Shown here: positions 2,799-64,000 of the stretch, piece by piece | How positions within the stretch are numbered: position 1 is the first letter of the stretch | Layout: every line of letters starts with the position of its first letter | Assembly (NCBI RefSeq): GCF_027359675.1 | Contig: NZ_CP114787.1 | Location: 62,001 to 126,000, forward strand | Length of the DNA: 64,000 nucleotides | Origin: Roseibium sp. Sym1 | Lineage (GTDB): Bacteria > Pseudomonadota > Alphaproteobacteria > Rhizobiales > Stappiaceae | Direction: 5' to 3' | The notes under the pieces: generated by a model | Database searches by the model: none | The model's input: the letters and a program-made list of their open reading frames with translations, nothing else | What the model was told of the DNA's origin: nothing | Made by a program: the position numbers and the translations under genes

Positions 2799-3536
2799 AT
2801 GTCGGACATCGTCGGCTCAAGCTTCAACACCACACTTTCACACATCGCCGACGTTTCGGACCGCGAGAGCCTCGATGCCGTCATGGAGGAACTCGCCGTC
2901 GGCTACGGTCTTAGTTCCGCAGCCTATTTCGGTATTGGCTTGTCGGGCCGATCGAAGGGTAATCCGTTTCTGGCGGTGACGTACTCGTCGGACTGGGTGG
3001 AGCACTACAAGGAGCGCCGTTTCGTGGAAATTGATCCGGTGATCCAGACCGGTTTCAGACGCCTGCTCCCGCTCGATTGGGAGGGGTTTGATAGAACCGA
3101 CGAGAGGATCAAAACGCTGTTTGGCGAGGCGACCGAGTTCGGTCTTGGGAAAAAGGGCCTCTCGATCCCGGTGCATGGTCGGCATGGTGATCGCGGGCTG
3201 CTTTCGATCAGTTGCGACCGGGCTGACCGCGACTGGACGCACGACAAACTGCTCTATCTACGCGACTTCCAAGTCGTGGCCACACATATTCATGACAAGG
3301 TGCTGCGACTGGAAGGGCACTGGCCGCTGGAACGGCATCTTTCCCCGCGCGAGGTCGAATGCCTGCAATGGATCGCGGAAGGCAAAACGGCTTGGGAATG
3401 CGCCACCATCCTGGGGCTCTCGCAGCACACTGTCCGCTACTATCTCGAGAGTGCTCGTCACAAGCTCAACGCCACCAGCAACACCCATGCGGTGTCGATC
3501 GCCCATAGAGCTGGTCTCCTTCTACCTCCCCTGTAA
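2799..3536 (+). CDS. LuxR-family quorum-sensing transcriptional regulator
   Basis: 245 residues with an N-terminal autoinducer-binding domain (about 10-165) and a C-terminal LuxR HTH (about 177-235). The acyl-homoserine-lactone pocket residues of the family are present: W66, Y70, D79-P80 and W94, matching W57, Y61, D70 and W85 of TraR. The HTH reads LSPREVECLQWIAEGKTAWE followed by the ILGLSQHTVRYYLESARHKL recognition region. It lies 86 bp upstream of a luxI gene in the same direction and near a traM-like gene, the standard arrangement for density-dependent control of plasmid transfer. It is not close enough to TraR to use that name. The start ATG has only a weak Shine-Dalgarno sequence. Confidence 0.9.
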   Translation: MSDIVGSSFNTTLSHIADVSDRESLDAVMEELAVGYGLSSAAYFGIGLSGRSKGNPFLAVTYSSDWVEHYKERRFVEIDPVIQTGFRRLLPLDWEGFDRTDERIKTLFGEATEFGLGKKGLSIPVHGRHGDRGLLSISCDRADRDWTHDKLLYLRDFQVVATHIHDKVLRLEGHWPLERHLSPREVECLQWIAEGKTAWECATILGLSQHTVRYYLESARHKLNATSNTHAVSIAHRAGLLLPPL

Positions 3537-3622: not shown

Positions 3623-4294
3623 ATGATATTCACAATCGAAAGTGTCGATCAGGACAAGCACCGCGAACTGATCGACGAGATGTTCCGCATGCGCGCCGAA
3701 GTCTTTTCCGGCCGCCTCGGCTGGGACGTGAGGGTCGAAAACGGCCGCGAGATCGACCGCTTCGATGCCGAGGACCCGCTCTACCTCCTGTCGCTCGATG
3801 AGCGGTCCGGGCAGCTGCGCGGGGCGGTACGGCTTTTGCCCACGACCGGCCCCAATATGCTCAGGGACGTATTTTCCGTGCTCATGCCATGCGGGGCGGT
3901 CGAGAGCCCATTGATCTGGGAGAGCTCTCGTTTCGCGGTCAACCCGCGCATTTTCGAGGCAACGGATCGGGCCGAAGCAAATCATACGGTGAACCGGACC
4001 ACCGTGGAGCTCTTGTGCGGGATGGTCGAAACTGCCCAACAGGCAGGCATCGAGCATATAGTATCCGTCTTCGACACACGAATGGCCCGGATTTTCAGAT
4101 CGATCGATTGCCGCTTTGAGCAGCTCGGTACACCGGCGCGAATCGGCAAGACCATGACCTATGCCGGCCTGTTCGATATGAGCCTCGACATGCGTTCCCG
4201 GCTGGGTACGGCGGGCAATTTCCGCGAGCCCGTTCTCGCCGATGTTGAACTGCCGCGACGGCCCGCAACCGGACATATGGCAAATGCCGAATAA
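3623..4294 (+). CDS. Acyl-homoserine-lactone synthase (LuxI family)
   Basis: 223 residues. It makes an N-acyl-homoserine lactone from S-adenosylmethionine and an acyl-ACP or acyl-CoA. All invariant LuxI residues are visible: R24, F28, W34, D45, D48, R70, E100 and R103 (in WESSRF). The C-terminal tail, rich in Arg/Pro, is slightly longer than in TraI. It pairs with the upstream luxR and probably supplies its ligand. The ribosome-binding site lies within a predicted hairpin. Acyl-chain specificity cannot be read from the sequence. Confidence 0.93.
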   Translation: MIFTIESVDQDKHRELIDEMFRMRAEVFSGRLGWDVRVENGREIDRFDAEDPLYLLSLDERSGQLRGAVRLLPTTGPNMLRDVFSVLMPCGAVESPLIWESSRFAVNPRIFEATDRAEANHTVNRTTVELLCGMVETAQQAGIEHIVSVFDTRMARIFRSIDCRFEQLGTPARIGKTMTYAGLFDMSLDMRSRLGTAGNFREPVLADVELPRRPATGHMANAE

Positions 4295-4317: not shown

Positions 4318-4586
4318 GCGTCTGGCGTTCGTTGACCTGATCCAATATGCTCAGCCCGAGGCGGTACGCGCCGCCTCGGGGCGTGGAAACCCCACTCTAG
4401 CGGATTGGAGCCGACCGTATCGGCTCCAAGATCCTTCGGCTTTCGGCCGGGGGCCTGTGACGTATGTCCAGGCGCCCCGGTGCTAAAGGTCGCAGGGACC
4501 GCCTAGAGCGGTTTTCCAACCCCCGGCTTGGGGTCGAGATCTTTCTCTGTCGCGGGGGCGCACCGCGGCGCAAGCCGCGGGATGAT
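4318..4586 (+). ncRNA. Structured leader RNA upstream of traM (copy 1)
   Basis: A region of about 270 nt between luxI and traM with dense complementary segments. Helix A: 4355-4364 with 4371-4380 (CCCGAGGCGG/CCGCCTCGGG). Closing helix B: 4395-4403 with 4499-4508 (CTCTAGCGG against CCG-C-CTAGAG, one bulged C), extended by TGGAAACC (4384-4391) with GGTTTTCCA (4510-4518). Helix C inside it: TTGGAGCCGA (4405-4414) with TCGGCTCCAA (4420-4429). A GC-rich arm covers 4447-4480. Helix E: CCGCGGC-GCAA-GCCGCGG (4563-4580), a GNRA-type tetraloop directly before the traM start. A diverged second copy at 9108 keeps these helices with compensatory changes. No known family is recognised. Confidence 0.6.
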
Positions 4587-4922
4587 TTGCAATTGTCGGA
4601 ACCGTTCGCCCTCAAACTTGAACCATCATCGGCGAAACATTCCATTGCCGCTATTCTTGTCGGCTTGAACGAGCCCGCGCTCGAGCGTGTCGCCTTGGAC
4701 GTCATTCGTGAGCAGAGGCGACGCCTCGAACACGCTCAGGCATTGTATGAGAAGTTGTCCACGCTTGAAGCCAATGCGCCACTCGAAGAAGAAGGCGAGG
4801 ACCTGCGCCACGATTACCGGCTGGCGCTTTTGATGATGCGTGCACATCACCAGATTACGTCCGCCGTCATCGACAGGCTGGGCCGCGTGCCTCGCTTACC
4901 GGAGGACGAAACCAGTCACTAG
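4587..4922 (+). CDS. traM: TraM-like anti-activator of quorum-sensing regulator
   Basis: About 111 residues when read from the TTG at 4587 (a TTG at 4593 is also possible); an upstream extension in the same frame would have to translate the structured leader and is rejected. The segment GLNEPALERVALDVIREQRR followed by LEHAQALYEKL matches the TraM helical fold, in which a small dimer binds and inactivates TraR. Length agrees with the ~102-residue Agrobacterium protein. Its position after luxR-luxI supports a role in setting the quorum threshold for transfer. A GNRA-capped stem ends seven bases before the start and may limit ribosome access. Confidence 0.72.
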   Translation: MQLSEPFALKLEPSSAKHSIAAILVGLNEPALERVALDVIREQRRRLEHAQALYEKLSTLEANAPLEEEGEDLRHDYRLALLMMRAHHQITSAVIDRLGRVPRLPEDETSH

Positions 4923-5349
4923 AACGGTACTGGGTCGATCGGGCACTTTCGTAAGGCGCTGAAATCGTGCCAGAAAAGTGGCTTCTGAAGTACGTCGCGA
5001 TTTCTTTTCACATCTGACACTCCTGAAATTTTTTTGCAAACTCGGTTCTGGTGATATCGCCCTGCCACTCATGCGCATGGAACACAGCCAGAAATGCGCC
5101 AAAAGCGTCCATTTTCAGGATCTGGCGGACTACCTCGACAAGCGACGCACGGTGGCCAGGAAAGAATTGTCTCAATTGACAGGGTGGAACTGAGCCTGAA
5201 GTCTGAAACGGAAGCTCGCACCGCTTTTCGGGTGTACTTATACGGTCCGGCCCCACCCTCAGTGCCTCATGGTTGACCAGCAAACGCAAGGTCGATGTCC
5301 CGTTGAATAGCAACGAGCCATCGCAGCGTGGGCGATTCAGGATTGTTGC
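4923..5349. other. Intergenic stretch, no supported gene
   Basis: Short frames exist on both strands, the longest a 101-codon minus-strand frame at 5008-5313, but none has a convincing ribosome-binding site or recognisable domain. The stretch separates the transfer/quorum genes from the metal-response genes, has lower GC than its neighbours (an AAATTTTTTT run near 5027) and looks like a junction. Confidence 0.4.
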
Positions 5350-6657
5350 TCACGGCTCGCGCGGCCATTGCGGATGCAGATCGTCGATGACGAAGGCATG
5401 AGCCTGGCGATGTCCGCCGCTGGGTGAGCCCTCTTTCCAGTGTGGGTCGCTGTCCGGTAGCTCGGGATGCCGATGAGCGATGGTCTCTTTGTCGGATACC
5501 GGCCAGACAAGCACCGCGGCGACCAAAGATACAGCGCCGACGACCGCAAGAACCACGAATGTCGGATTCAATCCGAGCATGGCACCGAGCCAACCCGCCA
5601 GCGGATAGGTGACGAGCCAGCAGGCATGCGAGAGGGCAAACTGTGCGGCGAACAGTGCGGGCCTGTCTTCGGGGCGCGAAGAGCGCCGCAGCAACCGGCC
5701 GGACGGCGTCTGCGCAGTGGAATAGCCGATCCCGATCACGAACCAGAGCGGCAGAAGCATGACGAAGCCCGGCGCTATCGGGCCGGCGATCATGAGCGCA
5801 ACACCGGTCAGTATTGCCGCGCGGTCGGAAACGGTTTCGAGGAGACGGGGCAAGGTCAGCGCCGCCAGCATCGACCCGCCACCGAAGGCCGCTAGCGCCA
5901 AAGCCGTCGATTGCTGCGACAATCCAAACGCGCCTTGAACAATGACCACCGTATTGACGATCACCATTGCACCGGCGGCGGCAACGGCCATGTTGACCGT
6001 CAGCAGACCACGTAGACGGGGTGTGGCGAGATAGATGCGCATTCCACGCGTGGTCCGTTCGTAGATCGGGCGCGGCGTGCTTGGCTTCGGGCTGGGCAGC
6101 AAGACCGAGACGACGAACGCGGCCGACGCGACAAAGCCTATGACGGTGCCGGCGAACAACGTATGAAAGCTGACCAGCGTGAGCAGGAGCGCGGCGAGCA
6201 TCGGACTGACCAGGCTTTCGAGATCATAGGCCAGCCGCGACAGGGACAGCGCCCGCGTATAGTCCTTCTCGTCCGGCAAAACATCGGGGATCGTTGCCTG
6301 GAACGTCGGGGTGAATCCCGCCGAGGCCGATTGCAGCAGGAAGATCAGCACATAGATCTGCCAGACCTCAGTGACGAATGGCAGCAACACCGCGATGCCC
6401 GCGCGCACCAGATCGAGGCTGACCAGCATGGCGCGCCGGGGTAGCCGTTCGGCAAAGGCGGCGGCAACCGTCGCCACACCGACATACGCGATCATCTTGA
6501 TGGCAAGCGCGGTGCCAAGGACCGTACCGGCATCGGCGCCGGCCAGATCGAAGGCCAATAATCCCAAGGCGACGGTTGCCAGTTCCGTGCCAATCAGAGC
6601 GATGATCTGTGCGCCGAAGAGATGCCGATAAGTACGGTTCGAGAGGACTTCGAGCAT
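5350..6657 (-). CDS. MFS transporter, probable metal exporter (NreB-like)
   Basis: 435 residues with about 12 hydrophobic segments and the MFS loop between TM2 and TM3 (FAERLPRRAMLVSLDLVRAG). The C-terminal tail is soluble and contains several histidines (IAHRHPEL, GGHRQAHAF, LHPQWP), as in NreB-type nickel/cobalt exporters. The gene starts 6 bp downstream of a CsoR/RcnR-type metal sensor in the same direction, so the pair is probably an operon induced by a metal ion. The ion is not determined; a drug or other substrate cannot be excluded. Confidence 0.72.
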   Translation of the reverse strand: MLEVLSNRTYRHLFGAQIIALIGTELATVALGLLAFDLAGADAGTVLGTALAIKMIAYVGVATVAAAFAERLPRRAMLVSLDLVRAGIAVLLPFVTEVWQIYVLIFLLQSASAGFTPTFQATIPDVLPDEKDYTRALSLSRLAYDLESLVSPMLAALLLTLVSFHTLFAGTVIGFVASAAFVVSVLLPSPKPSTPRPIYERTTRGMRIYLATPRLRGLLTVNMAVAAAGAMVIVNTVVIVQGAFGLSQQSTALALAAFGGGSMLAALTLPRLLETVSDRAAILTGVALMIAGPIAPGFVMLLPLWFVIGIGYSTAQTPSGRLLRRSSRPEDRPALFAAQFALSHACWLVTYPLAGWLGAMLGLNPTFVVLAVVGAVSLVAAVLVWPVSDKETIAHRHPELPDSDPHWKEGSPSGGHRQAHAFVIDDLHPQWPREP

Positions 6658-6663
6658 CGCGCG

Positions 6664-6945
6664 TCACAGATACTTCGTGATCGCCTTGAACTCGGCTATC
6701 GATTGTTTTTGTTCCTCCGGCAAGCTCTCGGCAGCATCGCCCAGGCAATGATCGAGGTGATCGCGGATCAACGTCTTCTTCGCCTCGGAGATCGCCTTTT
6801 CGACGGCGTGAAGTTGCTGCGCGAGATCGAGGCATGGTCGGCCGTCCTCGATCATGCCGATCACACGTTGCAGGTGACCTGCGGTGCATCTAACGTCGCG
6901 GTTTCGATTTTGGACTCGCTCATGCGGTTCACCCTCGAATTTCAT
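6664..6945 (-). CDS. CsoR/RcnR-family metal-sensing repressor
   Basis: The core GHLQRVIGMIEDGRPCLDLA with AVEKAISEAKKTLIRDHLDH and a following Cys is the all-helical CsoR/RcnR/FrmR fold. The ligand set C (GRPC), H and C (HLDHC) resembles the CsoR C-H-C set more than the RcnR set. It precedes the MFS gene by 6 bp and probably represses it. The N-terminus is uncertain: the ATG at 6945 gives 93 residues but has a weak Shine-Dalgarno sequence, while the ATG at 6923 has a good one (GAGGGTG) but lies in another frame that stops after 20 codons. A one-base frameshift between 6890 and 6923 is possible. Confidence 0.75.
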   Translation of the reverse strand: MKFEGEPHERVQNRNRDVRCTAGHLQRVIGMIEDGRPCLDLAQQLHAVEKAISEAKKTLIRDHLDHCLGDAAESLPEEQKQSIAEFKAITKYL

Positions 6946-6961
6946 TCCAGGGCAAGCTAAG

Positions 6962-6980
6962 GTCTGTAGCAACTACAGAC
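6962..6980. promoter_or_regulatory. MerR-type operator between divergent metal regulators
   Basis: GTCTGTAG-CAA-CTACAGAC is a perfect dyad with 8-bp arms and a 3-bp spacer, the shape of operators bound by MerR-family metal sensors. It lies 19 bp before the merR-type start codon and also upstream of the oppositely oriented csoR-like gene, so it could serve either or both promoters. Confidence 0.6.
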
Positions 6981-6999
6981 TCAAGGAAGAATCCGAATA

Positions 7000-7413
7000 A
7001 TGGCCGATCACGTTTCCGGGAAGCAATTGCAGCGCGCCGAACTGGCAAGGCGCACGGGCTGCAATCTCGAAACCATCCGCTACTACGAGAAGACGGGCAT
7101 GATACCCGATCCGCCGCGCACGGCGTCGGGTTACCGCGTCTATGACGAAGCCCACGTCGCGCGGCTGCAATTCATCCTGCGCGCCCGCGAGCTCGGCTTT
7201 TCCATCGATGAGATTCGCGGCCTGCTCGACCTCGTCGATGGCGGTACGCAGACCTGCGCCGAAGTGAAGGAGCGGACAGAGCGACACCTCGCCGATATCC
7301 GGGACAAGATCGCCGACCTGAAACGGATCGAGCAGGTGCTGGCTGCGACCGCCGCGCAGTGTTCCGGCGAGGATGTGCCGGAATGTCCTGTCCTGGAGGC
7401 GCTGGCATCGTGA
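7000..7413 (+). CDS. MerR-family metal-responsive regulator
   Basis: 137 residues. The N-terminal winged HTH is canonical: [20 protein letters not shown], then [21 protein letters not shown] dimerisation helix follows, and metal-ligand candidates are a Cys in TQTCAEVKE (equivalent to MerR C82) and two in [16 protein letters not shown]. This pattern fits divalent or heavy-metal sensors of the ZntR/CadR/MerR group; which metal is unclear. A dyad operator lies just upstream. The stop codon overlaps the start of the following ynfA-like gene (GTGA), so the two are probably co-transcribed. Confidence 0.88.
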
Positions 7414-7739
7414 CGATGACGTTGGCGGTCTATTTCGGCGCGGCGCTGGCGGAAATTGTCGGCTGCTTTGCCTTCTGGGCGTGGTTGCGCCTGGACCGTT
7501 CGCCGCTCTGGCTCATTCCGGGTATGGCCAGTCTTGCTCTCTTCGCCTATCTCCTCACTCGCATCGACAGCGATTTCGCGGGCCGTGCCTATGCCGCCTA
7601 TGGCGGCATCTACATCGGCGCGTCGCTCTTGTGGCTTTGGATGGTTGAGTCGCAACGACCCGACCGCTGGGACGTGACAGGCGCTGCGATTTGTCTGGTC
7701 GGAGCAGCCATCATTCTGTGGGGTCCGCGAACCGCTTGA
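7410..7739 (+). CDS. YnfA-family small membrane protein
   Basis: About 109 residues with four transmembrane segments: [55 protein letters not shown] and [34 protein letters not shown] spacing ([17 protein letters not shown]) is the family hallmark. The GTG at 7410 overlaps the merR-type stop; an ATG at 7416 is the alternative. The UPF0060/YnfA family resembles small multidrug-resistance proteins. Genes of this family often sit beside metal regulators; the substrate is unknown. Confidence 0.85.
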
Positions 7740-7784
7740 TGCTTGGAAACCGTATAGCTGGCCAGTGCCGCCGGCCCACCGAAT

Positions 7785-7991
7785 TCATGACCTGCCACAG
7801 CCGCCGATCGCGGCCAGATCGCGATAGGCATCGATCAGCGGACGATTGCTTCCAGTAGAATTCGCATGTTCGCTGTCCAGTCTCTCCAGTGCGGCAAGCA
7901 TGAAATCAGCGATGTCTGGCCGGCCTTGCTGGCAGGCACACCTGAACACACGCAGAATCTCACGCTCCAACTGGTCGGCATTCGAGGTCAT
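7785..7991 (-). CDS. Small hypothetical protein
   Basis: 68 residues from an ATG at 7991; an upstream in-frame extension lacks a plausible start site. The sequence is helical and charged (LEREILRVFRCACQQGRPDI, FMLAALERLDSE) with no recognised domain. It looks like a small cytosolic protein of the kind found near metal-resistance islands, but no function can be assigned. Confidence 0.4.
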   Translation of the reverse strand: MTSNADQLEREILRVFRCACQQGRPDIADFMLAALERLDSEHANSTGSNRPLIDAYRDLAAIGGCGRS

Positions 7992-8080
7992 CGCCGTCGC
8001 CTCCTTGCTTGATGTCGAGCCTTCGCTATCCGGCGATGGGAAGGTCAATAGCGATTTCTTCAACTCTCCGCCCGGTCGAC

Positions 8081-8285
8081 TCACCCGATCGAAGAAAGTA
8101 TCGGAAAGGTTTCCAGGAGCCAGAAGGCGAACGCAGAGAGGTATCCCGTCATCATGGCGACCCCCATGACGATCAGCGCCACTCCCGCCAGCATCCTGAG
8201 AACGCGCCCGAGGCGTCCGAACGCCTTCAACCTGGCGGACAATGTATCGGTGAACAGCGCGGCAAGCAGGAATGGCACGCCGGGC
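8081..8285 (-). pseudogene. CcdA-type cytochrome c biogenesis protein, C-terminal fragment
   Basis: Only the last ~68 residues remain: GVPFLLAALFTD, RMLAGVALIVMGVAMMTG and FAFWLLETFPIL, two membrane helices typical of the C-terminus of CcdA/DsbD-like thiol transporters. Sequence upstream (about 8286 onward on the minus strand) is unrelated, so the 5' part was lost by recombination with the neighbouring transposase remnant. Confidence 0.65.
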
Positions 8286-8389
8286 TTCGTGATCGGAGAC
8301 GAGATCCTGCGCGGCGCCACCGACTTACAAACCATGCCGCGGCTGATCGACCAGGCCCGGAAAGATCGGCATCGATGAAGCCGGAGCCG

Positions 8390-9041
8390 CCCTGGCCTCG
8401 CGGATCTTCGCGAGCCGTTTGGGCTTGTCCTTGACCCAGTCCGGCATCTCGTCGCCGCGCTTGCCCGGCCCGTAAAGCCGGTCCTCATCGGCGTCAGCCG
8501 CCTCGGCAGCTTCCAGCTAGACCCGCACCTGGGCTGCCAGTTCCTCTTCGCGCCGGATCATATGGGCATAGCTCATCGCCTTGTGCTTCGACGCGTTTGC
8601 CTTCACCTTCGTGCCGTCCAGCGCAACATGGCCCAGCTTGACAAGGCCCGCCGTCGCTGCCAGCCGCAGCATCTGCACGAACAGTTCCGACAACGCCGCC
8701 AGATGACGCCGTCGAAACTCCGAGATCGTGCGGAAGTCCGGACCGTCCAGCGCCACGATCATCATGAAATCAGCCCGCTCCCGGCACGCCCCGGCAATCC
8801 GACGCGATGAATAGATCCCAACCGCATAGGAGTACAAAAGCAGTGCAACCATCATCGCCGGATCGTAGGGAGGCTGACCCTTCGCGCCACGGTAGCTGGC
8901 ATCGATCGCCGTCAGGTCAAGGCTCTCGCGCACAAGATCAACGACAAACCGGGAAAGATGGTCGACGGGAACAAAATCCTGAACCGACGGCGGAATTAGA
9001 AGGGTCTCGTCAAGACGCCAGGCGCGAAATCTCTTGCTCAT
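8390..9041 (-). pseudogene. IS1182-type transposase, 5' remnant with internal stop
   Basis: Starting at 9041, the frame encodes the N-terminal domain of an IS1182/DUF772 transposase (LLIPPSVQDFVPVDHLSRFV, YDPAMMVALLLYSYAVGIYS, LDGPDFRTISEFRRRH). An in-frame TAG (8517-8519) interrupts it. The same frame then continues as LEAAEAADADEDRLYG and DEMPDWVKDKPKRLAKIREA to about 8390, where family similarity ends. The catalytic C-terminal half is missing, so the element is dead. Confidence 0.8.
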
Positions 9042-9107
9042 GGGCTATATTCGAATCAGGCTCGCCTCCAAACGTCGAGAAAATTCCAATTCTCAGACAA
9101 ACTCCTA

Positions 9108-9371
9108 GCGTCTGGCGTTCGTTAACCTGATCAAATATGCTTCTCCCCGAGGCGGTACGCGCCGCCTTGGGGCTTAGAAACCCCTCCCTAGCGGCTTGGC
9201 ACCGGCCGACGCGGTGCCAGGATCCTTCGGCTTACGGCCGGGGGCATGTGACGCATGTCCAGGTGCCTCGGTGCTAAAGGTCGCAGGGCCGTCTAGGGGG
9301 TTTCTAACCCCCGGCTTGGGGTCGAGATCTTATATTTTGCGGGGGCGTACTGCGGACCAAGCCGTGGGAAA
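9108..9371 (+). ncRNA. Structured leader RNA, second diverged copy (copy 2)
   Basis: This aligns over its length with 4318-4586, at roughly 80 percent by eye. Helix A: CCCCGAGGCGG (9145-9155) with CCGCCTTGGGG (9162-9172), where a C-to-T change leaves a G-U pair. Helix B: CCCTAGCGG (9186-9194) with CCG-T-CTAGGG (9289-9298), same bulge position, extended by TTAGAAACC (9174-9182) with GGTTTCTAA (9299-9307). Helix C: CTTGGCACCG (9195-9204) with CGGTGCCAGG (9212-9221). Several pairs differ from copy 1 on both strands and still pair. It leads into a truncated traM start, so it is a relic or an independent copy from another plasmid. Confidence 0.6.
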
Positions 9372-9761
9372 TTGCCGCTATTGCCAGAACCGATCAGTCT
9401 CAATCTTGAACCGTCATCGCTGAAATATTCCGTTTCCGCGATTCTTGCCGGCTTGAACGAGTCCGCGCTTGAGCGTGTCGCTCTGGACGTCATTCGTGAG
9501 CAGACCAGCGACAACGCGACGACGATGGCGCTTCTGCGCGAGGTCGCCAACCTGATGCATACATCAGGTCTGCCCGACACGCAGTTGCTGCCTGCCGCGG
9601 CCACCTTCCTTGGCCAGACCGTGGTGAACCAGGCGTCGAACGCGGCGTTTCAGGACGGCTTCGTTGTCGTCTGCGGGATTTTCCTCCTCGCTCTGAATTC
9701 CGACTTGGCTGATGTGGCGCGCGGCGTCTTCGACCGCATAGCGGGGATATCTCCACTATGA
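9372..9761 (+). pseudogene. Chimera: traM N-terminus fused to the tail of an MFS (DHA2-type) transporter
   Basis: The first ~45 codons encode a TraM-like N-terminus (GLNESALERVALDVIREQ), nearly the same as in the copy at 4587. Immediately after REQ (9503) the sequence switches to TSDNATTMALLREVANLMHT and LGQTVVNQASNAAFQDGFVV plus a hydrophobic helix, resembling the C-terminal end of a drug-efflux MFS protein. The TraM fold is cut after its first helix and the transporter lacks almost all of its helices, so the fusion is unlikely to function. It marks a recombination joint. Confidence 0.6.
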
Positions 9762-63950: not shown

Positions 63951-63955
63951 ATGGA

Positions 63956-63989
63956 GAGCCGTATGCGCTGAAAGGTGCACGTGCGGTTC
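63956..63989 (+). ncRNA. Group II intron domain V
   Basis: GAGCCGTATGCGCTGAAAGG continuing TGCACGTGCGGTTC is a 34-nt hairpin with a GAAA tetraloop (63969-63972) and the conserved GAGCCGTATG/CGTGCGGTTC pairing. It contains the catalytic triad at the base of the stem and matches the bacterial consensus closely, so the ribozyme core seems intact. Confidence 0.9.
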
Positions 63990-64000
63990 GGGGAGGAGAA

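Follow-up and report, generated by a model that had tools for sequence, protein, structure and literature searches.

The 64,000-nucleotide (nt) stretch of Roseibium sp. Sym1 analyzed in this study (contig NZ_CP114787.1, positions 62,001 to 126,000, hereafter the window) carries two copies of a structured RNA of approximately 210 nt, located on the + strand at 4357..4568 (copy 1) and 9148..9355 (copy 2). Copy 1 lies immediately before a gene for TraM, the protein that restrains quorum sensing on Ti plasmids. Comparison with related sequences strongly supports structural selection on this RNA, read in the sense of traM. The same RNA precedes unrelated genes at other loci, and the best reading of the combined data is a new branch of RNAs resembling the small RNA (sRNA) sRNA-Xcc1 (Rfam family RF02221) that would act in cis on the gene that follows.

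Fold and covariation

The initial annotation of the window described 4318-4715 and 9108-9503 as aligned copies and proposed, from compensated base pairs, that selection acts on an RNA structure. Pairwise alignment confirmed the copies, and the expected bases are present at all four of the compensated pairs cited (A4409-T4425 to C9200-G9216, G4410-C4424 to A9201-T9215, T4396-A4507 to C9187-G9297 and G4385-C4517 to A9176-T9305), which map to P4, P3 and PL2, three helices in the fold described below. A bulged base that had been placed in a long-range helix fits an unpaired column within P3. The fold of copy 1 was better than 200 of 200 dinucleotide shuffles (z -5.55), while copy 2 was less striking, with a fold better than 197 of 200 (z -2.86).

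The family fold, derived from 27 sequences, consists of hairpins P1 and P2, followed by PL2 (formed by the P2 loop and a downstream linker), P3, P4, P6, P7 and P8. In these relatives pairing holds in 98.9% of 1265 cells, and both sides have changed in 27 of the 47 pairs, which strongly supports the proposed selection on structure. When the partners were slid by 1-3 columns, 36-46% of the cells paired and only 5-9 pairs were changed on both sides. None of 500 shuffles reached the observed pairing, and the covariation score, 0.410 for the fold, was 0.177 for shuffles and never above 0.088 for slid partners. A strand-swapping test over 34 alignment rows gave z-scores of -4.3 to -18.2 for P2, PL2, P3, P4, P5, P6, P7, PK2 and P9 (the helix around P8), with three control pairs remaining flat (z 0.1 to 0.8). 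These permutation tests ignore relatedness; however, the slid and control pairs, which are equally related, stay low.

Copy 1, delimited by alignments A2-A4 and by pair counts, scored 208.2 bits against the covariance model R1, and copy 2, which is compensated relative to copy 1, scored 194.9 bits; both copies are part of the R1 training set. The RNA begins with hairpin P1 (4359..4376), in which five of seven pairs have changed on both sides and the loop contains ACGC, a word present within the first 30 nt at 36 of 39 loci. Hairpin P2 (4378..4393; GGGG/CCCC) has compensatory changes in all four of its pairs, and its loop, L2, supplies the 5' strand of PL2 (4384..4389; partner 4513-4518), which is 100% paired with four of six pairs compensated. 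The P3 5' strand, termed 'a' (4396..4402; partner 4500-4507), shows compensation in five of seven pairs with up to four pair types per position, and hairpin P4 (4407..4427) in five of six pairs. A helix proposed by RNAalifold between GGGG and a distant CCCC was rejected, having no compensated pair and no specificity for its own partner (z +1.5); the GGGG pairs instead with the adjacent CCCC in P2.

The 3' strand of hairpin P5 (4433..4453) doubles as the 5' strand of PK2, GGCCGGGGG (4445..4453), whose partner is CCCCCGGCU at 4520..4528; PK2 also occurs as GGUCGGGGAG paired with CUCCCCGAUC. Each of the nine PK2 positions is paired in 32-34 of 34 rows, and three show swaps (GC/AU, CG/GC and GC/UA). 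Both P5 (own-strand duplexes beat permuted ones, z -4.3) and PK2 (z -5.4) are own-specific in a test that ignores relatedness, and because they use one strand they are mutually exclusive. P6, with an internal loop and the terminal hairpin P7 (4471-4484), occupies 4454..4497 with 97-99% of cells paired. Hairpin P8 (GCGG-GGGCGCA-CCGC, 4552..4566) is near-invariant in 27 rows, and its loop is complementary to that of P1; covariation is uninformative here because both loops are nearly invariant, so a kissing interaction is not proven (z -1.7, p 0.03). The GNRA-capped stem reported before traM (4563-4580) was found by eye in copy 1 only, and it overlaps the conserved P8. Several unpaired words are also retained: CUAAAG at 38 of 39 loci and AUGUCCAG at 30, which are the loop words of the P6/P7 arm, ACGC in the P1 loop at 36, and GGGGGCG in P8 at 32.

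Among the alignment cells, G-U combinations outnumber A-C combinations by 137 to 4, and by 68 to 4 when pairs that are mostly G-U are set aside, indicating an RNA of the traM sense strand. This asymmetry bears directly on the alternative that the element works as DNA, for example as an origin of transfer (oriT) or a recombination site. The region is indeed rich in inverted repeats, and 277 of the 370 plasmid records that contain it are typed as conjugative; however, the strand asymmetry led us to reject a DNA element, covariation extends to pseudoknots, and the promoter and start-codon spacing described below fit an RNA. A role as DNA is therefore extremely improbable.

Distribution, ends and downstream genes

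The 370 matching plasmid records were recovered by blastn from 72,556, with most in Agrobacterium (208) and Rhizobium (77) and others in Bradyrhizobium, Shinella, Methylobacterium, Sinorhizobium, Aminobacter and further genera. When a 221-base core served as the query, 298 of the 370 had a site spanning 80% or more of it. A search of 50,697 phage records gave none. Thirteen of 297 genomes of the same order match at E <=0.001 (three of them by 27-31 nt only), and R1 matches 26 of 385 genomes of the class at the same threshold, 10 of which reach 55 bits. In the phylum sample R1 matched nine of 200 genomes, all nine in the window's own class; these order, class and phylum counts include the genome of origin, which contributes the two copies only. 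Some relatives lie on large contigs (loci L038 and L068), and the Ti plasmid pTiC58 carries the element between traH and traM (NC_003065.3, 149,937-150,145). Alignment A2 excludes duplicates of the window (L001, L002, L009, L022), loci truncated where a contig stops (L016, L024) and the 27-31-nt matches (L019-L021). Alignment A4 adds seven class and phylum matches (L036-L040, L068, L073) and leaves out diverged loci (L041-L047, L070), duplicates (L065-L067, L072) and partial matches (L069, L071, L074). The 39-locus set comprises the 34 rows of A4 plus L042, L044, L045, L047 and L070, and weaker class matches (L048-L060, L062-L064) lie outside the examined set.

A promoter-like pair precedes the RNA at 22 of 39 loci, consisting of a CT(G/A/T)G -35 element, a spacer of 16-18 nt and a TA-containing -10 element ending 6-7 nt before the RNA; the background in mononucleotide shuffles is 3%. 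The same scan, together with the upstream sequences, placed the putative promoter of copy 1 at CTGGCG (4322..4327, + strand) and ATATGC (4345..4350, + strand, 6 nt before the RNA), and that of copy 2 at 9112..9140 (CTGGCG-N17-ATATGC, + strand). In pTiC58 and pAtK84b a stretch upstream of the RNA appears to resemble the TraR box. Downstream, an open reading frame (ORF) starts 22-27 nt past the RNA at 27 of 47 loci and 16-32 nt past it at 37 of 47. ORFs were chosen mechanically (the longest, with ATG preferred) and all 47 were counted although some are visibly in the wrong frame; several of the remaining ten have a visibly wrong frame or RNA end, and the RNA ends of L108, L109, L110 and L112 were estimated as the partial match plus 40-70 nt. 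The corresponding spacing in the window is 18 nt for copy 1 and 16 nt for copy 2. At none of 39 loci do the final 50 nt of the RNA or the 45 nt beyond it contain a run of five or more T, and a run of four occurs at five. A cis leader, one of the possibilities raised in the initial annotation, is favored by the spacing, by where the promoter-like pair lies and by the absence of any T-run resembling a terminator.

The additional suggestion that the leader controls the quorum-sensing antiactivator proved too narrow, as the same RNA precedes unrelated genes. An annotated TraM gene lies directly downstream in 12 of the 23 plasmid regions inspected, and a Pfam match (PF09228) confirmed the TraM proteins encoded in the window, in pTiC58 and at L012 and L034. 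Small DUF2285 proteins (PF10074) follow the RNA in L017 and L068, with a similar one in L073. A replication initiator (RPA) is nearby in both L017 and L068, and L017 additionally has a relaxase-like gene with DUF3363 and another DUF2285 regulator in its neighborhood (L113, L115). Passages of PMC10359603 place the conjugation antiactivator QseM among the DUF2285 proteins. Elsewhere the RNA is followed by helix-turn-helix regulators (L014, L110 and similar loci), a DUF4268 protein (L042), an SNase-like protein (L044), membrane- or lipoprotein-like ORFs (L038, L040), or small proteins lacking a Pfam match (L010, L026, L033, L109, L111). With such unrelated genes downstream, the RNA is not tied to traM, and a riboswitch dedicated to TraM was rejected for the same reason. 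On a plasmid of Rhizobium sp. BT03 (L030:3498-4025) the RNA is intact and the unannotated traM behind it appears, by eye, to be frameshifted.

A more general riboswitch, binding a ligand such as an autoinducer or a metabolite and thereby setting antiactivator levels, would agree with the leader position, with the mutually exclusive P5 and PK2, and with the unpaired words kept in 30-38 of 39 loci. However, a stricter loop pattern, GTATRYMMA, occurs in only 20 of 39 loci, the downstream genes share no obvious pathway, and the RF02221 relatives discussed below look like antisense RNAs, making a ligand-binding function quite unlikely.

Kinship with sRNA-Xcc1 and the ribosome-binding site

Nothing credible was found near the leader at the Rfam threshold, and to this extent the earlier statement that no known family could be recognized holds; below the threshold, a kinship with sRNA-Xcc1 emerged. 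Among 16 loci scanned, four (L040, L042, L068 and L073) gave RF02221 matches whose scores, from highest to lowest, were 36.6, 36.2, 32.5 and 31.7 bits, under the gathering cut-off of 53 but full-length, in register and all on the RNA. The window aligned in the same register at 14.6 bits (E 2.8), which is below the 53-bit cut-off and not significant alone. The outer stem of RF02221 enclosing two hairpins, in the order of that family, is present in the full-length alignments of L068 and L042 and, as PK2, in the 34 rows. A mir-192 match of L068 (E 2.3e-6) was taken as chance. In the phylum sample, the RF02221 model itself matched 46 of 249 genomes (32 above the cut-off) and none of 14 control genomes.

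The 30 RF02221 loci analyzed (L075-L104, among the matches listed) show a distinctive set of complementarities. The 3' part of the RNA is more complementary to its own next 75 nt, which hold the ribosome-binding site (RBS) of the following ORF, than to those of other loci (mean -21.9 versus -17.8 kcal/mol, p 2e-4). At many of the loci, the linker is matched by the loop of an upstream P2-like hairpin and the a' loop by an upstream 'a' segment (z -8.2 and -8.8 over 24 of the 30). Against the first 45 nt after the RNA only, and over these 24 loci, a' scored z -5.2 and the linker L2' z -2.9, with four controls at z -1.2 to 0.1. The script found no P2 hairpin in L085, L089, L090, L093, L095 and L100 and took the wrong hairpin at several of the loci kept (e.g., L077, L079, L087, L091, L094 and L097). 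Words of at least 8 nt recur between the upstream region and the RBS side in 13 of the 30 loci, compared to 5% when different loci are paired. These sequences suggest a trio made up of an antisense RNA, its target within the following gene and, upstream, a mimic of this target that may serve as a decoy. In L085, a clear RF02221 member (66 bits) from a genome of the same order as the window, the upstream region and the RBS side share CCTAGAAA, even though the script detected no P2 hairpin there. The trio is unmentioned in the passages and reference entries covered on sRNA-Xcc1, and no claim of novelty is made.

Complementarity of loop and linker to a locus's own RBS, a criterion derived here from the RF02221 loci rather than a published one, was then applied to the window family. 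The PK2 3' strand shows own-specific complementarity to the RBS region over the 34 rows (z -3.3 to -4.6). Overall, RBS complementarity is statistically clear for the RF02221 loci, weak for the window set and absent for the TraM loci alone. Masking of the RBS by a' and L2' in the window family is, unlike in the RF02221 loci, unsupported by the own-specificity test. By eye, CGGCUUG in the window (4524-4530) can pair, at the cost of PK2, with CAAGCCG (4571-4577) adjoining the start codon, and this pairing holds in four related rows (the two window copies, Jiella and Chelativorans).

Control of traM through its RBS is proposed to proceed as follows. A promoter just upstream of P1 would start a pseudoknotted sense RNA of about 210 nt, which would serve as 5' leader to the gene behind it, in this case traM, and control that gene in cis. 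The GGCCGGGGG strand would have two alternative partners, the local P5 strand and the 3' strand CCCCCGGCU, and the pairing chosen would set whether the CU-rich 3' strand and the neighboring helices lie free beside the RBS. The RBS is predicted some 20-30 nt past the RNA, and its exposure would decide whether the antiactivator is made.

Several results weigh against this cis-acting, sRNA-Xcc1-related leader. When the 16 TraM rows are taken by themselves, complementarity between the PK2 3' strand and the RBS region shows no own-specificity (z -0.5) and that of the P9 side is worse than permuted (z +2.0), so that the signal stems from the other 18 rows (z -2.8 and -2.9); a' and L2' score z -1.7 and -2.4 against their own RBS in the 34 rows and -1.4 and -1.0 in the 16. 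Model R1 found only one of the 30 listed RF02221 loci, at 12.3 bits. In the scan that matched L068 to RF02221, this locus received a lower E-value from a microRNA model, so sub-threshold E-values alone are weak evidence. Two further points favor a stand-alone sRNA, carried by mobile elements and acting in trans, that happens to precede small genes. Passages of PMC2996969 report the Xanthomonas sRNA-Xcc1 as a separate 88-nt RNA, and in the window copy 2 retains an intact RNA and promoter-like pair although its traM is broken. On the Ti plasmid, such an sRNA may be QfsR, which passages of PMC7912708 and PMC7843513 link to conjugation and quorum sensing, and the pTiC58 element between traH and traM would suit this identity. 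These passages do not give the position of QfsR, which may or may not be the window RNA. Since the short start-codon spacing across unrelated genes and the absence of T-runs of at least five near the 3' end at all 39 loci disfavor a separate transcript, we regard the stand-alone sRNA as rather unlikely. On balance, the RNA is somewhat more probably a pseudoknotted cis leader of the next gene, belonging to a large family on plasmids and elements resembling integrative and conjugative elements (ICEs) and distantly homologous to sRNA-Xcc1.

All window genes named here are on the + strand unless noted. The traM of copy 1 (4587..4919; PF09228 Prok-TraM, E 3.4e-12) has a mechanically chosen TTG start, and is preceded by a traR-like LuxR regulator (2799..3533; several LuxR-type models including TraR, E 7.5e-20, all below cut-off) and a traI-like synthase of acyl-homoserine lactone (AHL; 3623..4291; TraI models, E 3.3e-42, below their cut-offs). 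The ORF after copy 2 (9372..9758) has a TraM-like N-terminus by comparison with copy 1, followed by an unrelated tail, and is probably decayed; it has no Pfam match. An ORF on the minus strand just upstream of copy 2 (8517-9041) resembles a transposase by eye and may mark the route by which copy 2 arrived. Over the whole window, the sole Rfam match at threshold was a group II intron end at 63954-64000, representing the 5' part of a match to that family and running past the window end; no riboswitch was found at threshold, and ARAGORN identified no tRNA.

Comparison with known systems

Riboswitch and attenuator leaders are structured 5' leaders with mutually exclusive helices near the RBS. The window RNA would resemble them in layout but differs in having no known ligand, no riboswitch match at the Rfam threshold, and downstream genes that point to no obvious pathway. 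QfsR of Agrobacterium fabrum (Diel et al. 2019) is, like the pTiC58 element, encoded on a Ti plasmid and linked to quorum sensing and conjugation, a likeness drawn from descriptions only. According to passages of PMC7843513 this sRNA controls flagellar and conjugation genes, and according to those of PMC7912708 it acts on trb mRNA and raises AHL. No leader RNA of traM is mentioned in the titles and abstract openings on QfsR, sRNA-Xcc1, traM sRNAs, Ti-plasmid non-coding RNA, QseM, or untranslated regions of TraM/TraR. If the RNA does control TraM translation, current models of transfer timing in Ti and symbiotic plasmids miss a component.

The closest parallels are with sRNA-Xcc1. Its outer stem corresponds to PK2, both RNAs have a P6-like arm with an internal loop, and the a' hairpin and L2' linker occur in the same order. 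Many RF02221 loci also resemble the window family in having an upstream half that contains a P2-like hairpin and an 'a' segment. As in the window family, sRNA-Xcc1 usually lies just before an ORF (upstream of symE in the passages of PMC12444791), and carriage on mobile elements is common to both, sRNA-Xcc1 being integron-, transposon- and plasmid-borne according to the title of Chen et al. (2011). There are also differences. In the RF02221 loci the halves are apart and L2 and a are often repeated on the RBS side, whereas in the window family the halves are united in a single RNA of about 210 nt that also has P1 and P8 and shows no clear repeat at the RBS. At 21 of the 30 listed RF02221 loci a run of four or more T is located 30-95 nt ahead of the Rfam model, compared to none of 39 at the matching place here. 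The likeness in layout is stronger evidence of kinship than the sub-threshold scores, and common descent with sRNA-Xcc1 is likely, although not proven. More tentatively, and with considerable doubt, a widespread RNA switch of mobile elements may govern TraM and the unrelated DUF2285/QseM-like antiactivators of conjugation as well as other cargo genes, having arisen when an sRNA-Xcc1-type antisense RNA and its RBS-mimicking decoy were joined in a single pseudoknotted leader. Such a switch would add an RNA layer to the quorum-sensing control of plasmid and ICE transfer, and the parallels link sRNA-Xcc1, until now described as trans-acting, to the idea that an adjacent gene is regulated via its RBS.

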